A stretch of 64,000 nt of DNA from Nitrospira sp. (GTDB lineage: Bacteria > Nitrospirota > Nitrospiria > Nitrospirales > Nitrospiraceae), in NCBI GenBank assembly GCA_024998595.1, contig JACOEK010000001.1:992001-1056000 (forward strand). The letters run 5' to 3'. Below are positions 826 to 59,055 of the stretch, piece by piece. The first letter of the stretch is position 1, and each line of letters begins with the position of its first letter. The notes below the pieces were generated by a model that had not been told where the DNA came from, searched no databases, and saw nothing but the letters and a program-made list of their open reading frames with translations. Both the position numbers and the translations under genes were made by a program.

Positions 826-4224
<3,399 letters not shown>

Positions 4225-57555: not shown

Positions 57556-58002
57556 ATGCGTATAGGTCTATTGTCCCTAAGTCTGGGTATTTGGGCTACG
57601 ATAGGACTCTGCAACATTGCAGGTCCGACCCCTGCCAGTGGAGCTGAGCAAGCGCCGCAGGTTCCTCCGCTGCGAGTGCCGGTTGATCAAGCGGACGGAA
57701 TCCAGCGGGCTACGGTGATTCTGGACAGCTACTCCTATACCCCGCAGCATTTGATCGTGCAGGCCGGGAAACCCGTTGAACTGCTCTTGACCAGTATCAC
57801 CACCATCACCCCTCATAACTTTATGTTACGGGATGATGCAGCCGGGCTCTCGATCGAACGGGATGTAAGTGCCGGTAAAACAGTGACGGTGCAATTTACA
57901 CCGACGAAGCCGGGCACCTATTCCTTCTATTGCGACAAGAAACTCCTCTTTTTCCCAAGTCACCGGGAGAAAGGCATGGAAGGGACACTCGAAGTCAGAT
58001 AA
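57556..58002 (+). CDS. Exported cupredoxin-domain protein
   Basis: 148 residues. Signal peptide MRIGLLSLSLGIWATIGL...PASGAEQ. A single cupredoxin domain follows: strand QRATVILDSYSYTPQHLIVQ, first His in TITPHNFMLRD, and the terminal copper loop YSFYCDKKLLFFPSHREKGMEG, holding a Cys, His and Met. It probably carries copper or electrons in the periplasm. The stop TAA at 58000 lies in the same frame as the downstream squalene/phytoene synthase. Confidence 0.85.
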   Translation: MRIGLLSLSLGIWATIGLCNIAGPTPASGAEQAPQVPPLRVPVDQADGIQRATVILDSYSYTPQHLIVQAGKPVELLLTSITTITPHNFMLRDDAAGLSIERDVSAGKTVTVQFTPTKPGTYSFYCDKKLLFFPSHREKGMEGTLEVR

Positions 58003-58014
58003 GCAGGTTGCGCC

Positions 58015-59055
58015 ACGAGTAATCAGCCTTCCAAGCACGAACTCCTTCGCGTCATTCTCAAACAGGTATCCCGTTCATTTTACCTGACGCTGAATGTCCT
58101 TCCGTCGGATGTGCGCGACGAGATGGGCTTGGCTTATCTGCTTGCGCGGGCGGCCGATACGATCGCCGACACCGACCTGATCGGGCGTGAGCAGCGCCTT
58201 CAGTATCTGAACATGTTTCGCGCTCAGTTCACAGGCGACGGAGTCCAGCCGCAAGCCGTCCAGGCGATTCAGACGGCCCTTCTCCCGCACCAGACCGACT
58301 CGGCGGAGCGCGTGCTCCTGGAGCGACTGCCGGAGTGCTTGGCTCTTTACCGACAGTTCGAACGGGCTGATCGCGAGCGCATTCGCTGGCTGATGGAGGT
58401 GCTGCCGAACGGAATGGAGATGGACCTGATGAGGTTTCCTGGTTCATCGGCCCAAGACCTCTCAGCGCTGGAGCGGCCGGAAGAACTGGATCGGTATACG
58501 TATTATGTGGCAGGCTGCGTGGGGGAGTTCTGGACGCGAATGGTGTGCGCACACCGGCGCGCCATGGCGCAGTGGGATGTAGACCGCATGTCTGCGATCG
58601 GCGTCCGCTTCGGGAAGGGATTACAACTCACGAACATTGTGAAAGATCTCGCCCGTGACCTCCACAATGGCCGCTGCTACGTGCCGACGCAGTGGCTGGA
58701 TGAGGTCGGGCTCAAACCGCTGGATTTGCTCAAACCGGAAAGCCTGCCGACTTTTCGCCCGATTCTGCTGCGAATGATCCGTCAGGCGGTGGCACATTTG
58801 GACCAGGGCTGGCTCTACACCATGGCGCTGCCGCGGTTGGAAATTCGCCAGCGACTCGCCTGCATGTGGCCGATTCTGCTGGCCGGTGAAACGCTTAAAC
58901 GCGTTGCCACGGCGCAGGATCTCCTCGATCCCACCGTCAACGTCAAGGCTCCGCGTTTGGTGGTCTATCGAGTGATGGCCCTCACCACCTTCACTGGCGC
59001 ATGTGGTTATGTCGGCACCGCCTACTGGGGGCGTTTGCGGAAGCAGATCATGTAG
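58015..59055 (+). CDS. Squalene/phytoene synthase family protein, apparent ACG start
   Basis: 346 residues if started at the ACG at 58015. Both aspartate-rich motifs are present (AADTIADTD; KDLARDLHNGRCYVP), so it should condense prenyl diphosphates to squalene or a carotenoid precursor. The track starts at GTG 58111, but family homology continues upstream (ELLRVILKQVSRSFYLTLNVLP), and the SRSFY motif is needed for activity. The frame has no ATG, GTG or TTG between the cupredoxin stop (58000) and GTG 58111. AGCAGG precedes ACG 58015 by 7 nt, giving TSNQPSKHELL; a mutated ATG, a rare ACG start or readthrough from the cupredoxin are the options. Confidence 0.82.
   Translation, partial: TSNQPSKHELLRVILKQVSRSFYLTLNVLPSDVRDEMGLAYLLARAADTIADTDLIGREQRLQYLNMFRAQFTGDGVQPQAVQAIQTALLPHQTDSAERVLLERLPECLALYRQFERADRERIRWLMEVLPNGMEMDLMRFPGSSAQDLSALERPEELDRYTYYVAGCVGEFWTRMVCAHRRAMAQWDVDRMSAIGVRFGKGLQLTNIVKDLARDLHNGRCYVPTQWLDEVGLKPLDLLKPESLPTFRPILLRMIRQAVAHLDQGWLYTMALPRLEIRQRLACMWPILLAGETLKRVATAQDLLDPTVNVKAPRLVVYRVMALTTFTGACGYVGTAYWGRLRKQIM

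Follow-up and report, generated by a model that had tools for sequence, protein, structure and literature searches.

A conserved ACG codon as the probable start of a squalene/phytoene synthase-family gene in Nitrospira

The locus and its reading frame

The window (the whole 64,000-nucleotide stretch of Nitrospira sp. DNA that was analysed) holds, close to one another on its plus strand, a gene for a cupredoxin-domain protein and a gene for a member of the squalene/phytoene synthase family. The features that matter for the start of the second gene are these:

57556..58002, plus strand: upstream gene, cupredoxin-domain protein (148 aa, ATG start; Pfam PF13473, 48.9 bits)
58000-58002, plus strand: cupredoxin stop codon TAA, in frame with the ACG and 12 nt ahead of it
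58001..58008, plus strand: Shine-Dalgarno-like AAGCAGGT, identical to AAGGAGGT at 7 of 8 positions; it overlaps the cupredoxin stop and ends 6 nt before the ACG
58015..58017, plus strand: ACG, probable start codon of the squalene/phytoene synthase gene, found in 29 of 29 readable clade genomes
58015..59055, plus strand: squalene/phytoene synthase-family protein (346 aa counted from the ACG; PF00494, PDB squalene synthases)
58054..58056, plus strand: ATT (ATC in other species), codon 14, a rival near-cognate start that is disfavoured
58111..58113, plus strand: GTG, the first in-frame canonical start codon, implausible as a start and varying in position among relatives

The codons that follow the cupredoxin TAA are gca ggt tgc gcc ACG (58015) agt aat cag cct tcc aag cac, and the frame continues gaa ctc ctt cgc gtc att (58054) ctc aaa cag gta tcc cgt tca ttt tac. 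As originally predicted, it contains no ATG, GTG or TTG between the TAA at 58000 and the GTG at 58111. The further claim that homology extends well upstream of this GTG also holds: the Pfam SQS_PSY match begins at residue 19 of P0001, which is codon 15 counted from the ACG, and the alignment with solved squalene synthases of the PDB runs from codon 14 through SRSF. Were translation to begin at 58111, a conserved part of the enzyme would therefore be lost, including the whole SRSFY motif, as had been foreseen. The GTG is itself unconserved, and we rejected it as a start. In other species the first canonical codon downstream lies at codon 18, 24, 26, 28, 33 or 37; since its position differs in this way, no downstream canonical codon can be the common start.

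Membership of the protein in PF00494 (SQS_PSY) is secure, with a match of 178 bits against a gathering score of 26. It resembles the eukaryote-type squalene synthases in this domain match, in its SRSF motif and in its similarity to squalene synthases of the PDB; it differs in scoring 83 bits against the curated cut-off of 286.75 for the squalene synthase equivalog TIGR01559, and in falling under the HpnC, HpnD and CrtB cut-offs too, so that the exact product is unsettled and the name squalene synthase is used here at family level. The same genome has another squalene/phytoene synthase-like gene, which begins with an ordinary ATG (L002, positions 1330-2208, minus strand, G000:C7) and lies next to a FAD desaturase-like gene. 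By its look that gene is HpnD/HpnE-like, and the enzyme of the window is a separate, distant paralogue.

Conservation of the ACG codon and its context

A family search of 147 genomes found the gene nearly everywhere. Within the clade, ACG occupies the same alignment column in all 29 readable species (28 in the genus and one neighbour), including Ca. Nitrospira defluvii with its complete chromosome (FP929003, L103); the 29 genomes are made up of 28 aligned loci and L288, a partial further genome of the genus that also reads ACG. All three bases of the codon are fixed in the 28 aligned loci, while codons 2-7 are free to vary in sequence and in amino acid. There are 84 fourfold-degenerate columns with an invariant amino acid, and codon 1 is the only one of them to keep a single codon: the other 83 use more than one, and the eight other invariant threonine columns use two to four each. 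The codon is thus conserved beyond what its amino acid would require, at an N-terminus that is itself conserved and holds no ATG, GTG or TTG. This suggests that purifying selection keeps the ACG as a start.

Lack of time does not account for this constancy, because fourfold-site divergence between L001 and the four measured relatives amounts to 35-59%, and because T is seen in at least one species at 38 of the 43 fourfold sites at which C is the majority base. One C-to-T transition would turn the ACG into ATG. The original prediction had called for a search for a sister genome with ATG at 58015; the search was run across the genus, and no readable genome has ATG at this base. The suggestions of a sequencing error, or of a recent change from ATG in one genome, fall with the same result, since 29 genomes of the clade, each assembled separately and one of them the complete Ca. 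N. defluvii chromosome, share the codon. Their probability is negligible.

The Shine-Dalgarno-like sequence that had been proposed ahead of the ACG at 58015 is borne out, with 7 nt between AGG and ACG in the window. One base of its GG is kept in 27 of the 28 aligned clade loci and the other in all 28. Pairing with the anti-Shine-Dalgarno sequence is calculated at -5.1 kcal/mol for the ACG of the window, and averages -6.3 kcal/mol at the 38 loci that have only an ACG, against -2.5 kcal/mol at 1626 other ACG triplets taken from the same genes as controls; pairing of -5 kcal/mol or stronger is found at 95% of the former and 17% of the latter. The ACG lies at normal spacing behind a Shine-Dalgarno sequence, as a conserved non-canonical start should. 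The gap from the cupredoxin stop to the ACG is 11-14 nt in all 28 aligned relatives, and the distance from the ACG to SRSFY is constant. Prediction of RNA structure at the start found nothing stable or unusual (z = 0.40).

The ACG is embedded in a wider motif, CCACGnnTA, which spans 58013-58021 and has its counterpart in 28 relatives. None of the 28 aligned genes departs from C(-2), T(+6) or A(+7), and 27 of them keep C(-1), although the amino acid at codon 2 changes (Ala, Ser, Thr, Val). The fixed bases beside the ACG may represent initiation context or another site, and the constraint on the ACG could partly reflect this wider nucleotide motif.

Start codons elsewhere in the family and in the genome

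Across the family the start of the gene has changed repeatedly: on a tree of 95 proteins, at least seven steps separate loci with only an ACG from loci with a canonical start. In other genera an ATG or GTG stands a few codons upstream of the ACG column, often overlapping the cupredoxin stop (TAATG, TAGTG), an arrangement that suggests translational coupling. A GTG, ATG or TTG lies exactly in the ACG column in a few loci (N. moscoviensis L111, L113, L159, L163, L170, L106); these also have another canonical codon nearby. Loci with only an ACG recur elsewhere in the family (groups g2, g3, g6 and g17), and other lineages lacking a canonical start likewise have ACG in the same column. Where a canonical start is nearby, the ACG has been lost in 28 of 68 loci; where none is nearby, it is found in the exact column in 38 of 40. 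The two exceptions are L036, whose ACG lies four codons further on and is preceded by AGAGGA, and L048, which has a shortened N-terminus and a GTG just beyond the span of positions tested.

In group g10 the ACG is nearly always retained although a GTG or ATG stands two codons upstream, and because of that upstream codon its retention alone is no proof of initiation there. Many of these loci (e.g. L079, L091, L292-L303) read GTG-gct-ACG, with AGG 7 nt before the ACG and 1 nt before the GTG. In most members of g10 the AGG is well spaced for the ACG and too near the GTG, and ACG starts are possibly hidden behind the annotated GTG. Four g10 loci have tagct in place of the AGG; two of them (L304, L306) have also lost the ACG.

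The specificity of the feature was assessed by a scan of 408 kb of the contig that contains the window against syntenic stretches of G095 and G089, covering 265 non-overlapping conserved genes. These two genomes were chosen after a check of synteny; a 388 kb stretch of G069 was not syntenic and was left out. Overlapping frames were removed as a guard against antisense shadow frames. The scan asked, in each of the three genomes, for at least 20 conserved, third-position-biased codons ahead of the first canonical codon, a length at which short cases are missed. Among the 265 genes only the squalene synthase gene has such a leader, and ACG starts are therefore no general habit of the organism. 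The other genes flagged were rejected as out-of-phase overlaps with a neighbour or as leaders whose conservation is unbiased.

The textbook non-canonical start is that of infC, which encodes IF3. In 8 of 8 Nitrospiraceae genomes tested infC starts at ATC behind a Shine-Dalgarno sequence, of the AGGTGACCT or AAGAGGTGTCTT type (L308, G000:C6 near 204488-204985, and L309-L315), a start that gene callers may have overlooked. It serves as an internal positive control, by analogy with which IF3 probably discriminates against near-cognate starts in these genomes too. The sole initiator-type anticodon stem found in the genome carries anticodon CAU. No special initiator tRNA bearing anticodon CGU turned up among the tRNA matches read (of 40 matches, 10 lacked their own locus, and the majority of these 10 were unread).

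A probable weak start and its rivals

That the ACG is a genuine start was one of several options in the original prediction, and it is the one supported by the conservation of the codon, by the Shine-Dalgarno sequence and by the absence of an alternative conserved canonical start. Comparative sequence makes ACG 58015 very probably the start of the squalene synthase gene; the most likely mechanism is as follows. Ribosomes would terminate translation of the cupredoxin at the TAA 12 nt upstream of the ACG, and the AAG(C/A)AGG Shine-Dalgarno sequence overlapping this stop would hold a 30S subunit; either the terminating ribosomes or 30S subunits bound there would go on to initiate. The ordinary fMet initiator tRNA (CAU) would then occupy the ACG, with C and A mismatched at the middle position, and discrimination by IF3 against so poor a codon would keep translation per mRNA low, well below that of the cupredoxin. 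The lack of C-to-T reversion to ATG in the clade would be explained if selection opposes a stronger start. ACG is a very weak start in E. coli, which counts against the reading, and it is probably weak here. We infer initiation at the ACG with fMet as first residue, coupling to the cupredoxin gene, low output, control by IF3, and selection against a better start.

Two rivals would place the start elsewhere. Initiation at the near-cognate ATT/ATC of codon 14 (58054) would yield a protein beginning MLKQVSRSFY, which retains SRSFY, and would reduce the ACG to a conserved upstream nucleotide motif. Codon 14 is ATT or ATC in 28 of 28 clade loci (ATC in 17, ATT in 11); AUU and AUC starts are established for infC (PMC5472188), and ATC is the infC start in these very genomes. 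Against this, no Shine-Dalgarno sequence precedes codon 14 (gaa ctc ctt cgc gtc), and codons 8-12 are kept as amino acids with synonymous changes, so that they must be translated; the canonical ATG or GTG of relatives is found at the ACG column, upstream of it or a few codons away, never at codon 14. We regard this start as improbable. The notion that readthrough of the cupredoxin TAA generates a cupredoxin-squalene synthase fusion, also among the original options, draws on the fact that the two frames agree here and in the majority of relatives, only 12 nt separating stop and ACG. The frames do not agree in all relatives, however: the gap is 11, 11, 14 and 13 nt in L012, L014, L024 and L028, which puts the genes out of frame while leaving ACG and Shine-Dalgarno sequence intact. 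These indels rule the fusion out for practical purposes; the stop is moreover kept as TAA or TAG, and in other genera the start overlaps the stop out of frame, as in TAATG. Readthrough is accordingly extremely improbable.

Two others accept the position of the start and differ on the ACG itself. C-to-U editing, by which chloroplast start codons are created from ACG (PMC9845219), would account for a C within an otherwise ideal start context. According to the same paper, bacteria have not been seen to edit in this way, and editing is superfluous where a Shine-Dalgarno sequence and a weak start codon suffice; it is highly improbable here. The most serious rival, unlikely though we judge it, is that the ACG is a true start whose retention has nothing to do with low expression, for instance because it belongs to an overlapping regulatory site CCACGnnTA. 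The invariant or nearly invariant flanks, next to a codon 2 that changes its amino acid, speak for such a site; the flanks are less constant in other lineages with only an ACG (e.g. L112, L030), and the region forms no stable structure.

The closest precedent for a functional ACG start is Streptomyces sigR, which starts with GTC in 32 of 34 species and has a conserved ribosome-binding site and proven repression by IF3 (PMC5472188). The likeness lies in a non-canonical start conserved over a genus together with its ribosome-binding site. The differences are that GTC is a third-base change from GTG whereas ACG mismatches at the middle base, that sigR encodes a regulator and the Nitrospira gene a metabolic enzyme behind a cupredoxin gene, and that the sigR start was proven with mutants and blots while the Nitrospira ACG is known from comparative sequence. 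The AUU/AUC starts of infC are likewise near-cognate starts under selection; their mismatch is at the third base, and autoregulation provides an obvious reason for them, a feedback for which squalene synthase has no known counterpart. Chloroplast genes share a genomic ACG at the start position, several of them edited to AUG in RNA (PMC9845219), an activity that bacteria are not known to have. Neither a conserved ACG start in a bacterium nor anything on this gene was found in the open-access literature searched, which excludes most subscription journals.

Very few bacterial genes have a conserved non-canonical start. An ACG leaves the middle base of the codon without a Watson-Crick partner, and heavy discrimination against it is expected; the codon nonetheless persists throughout a genus of nitrite oxidisers and reappears in other parts of the family, which makes the gene a clear test case for initiation fidelity beyond E. 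coli. A more tentative extension, possible and still doubtful, is that the ACG in Nitrospiraceae acts as a purposeful throttle on translation, responding to initiation fidelity (the level of IF3 or the state of the ribosome) and so tying isoprenoid flux to the translation machinery; the trait would be ancient, with gains or losses of canonical starts around it on several occasions. Non-canonical starts of this kind escape gene callers, as was pointed out for sigR (PMC5472188), and annotation has probably cut the enzyme by 17-36 residues genus-wide, taking SRSFY with them in most species.
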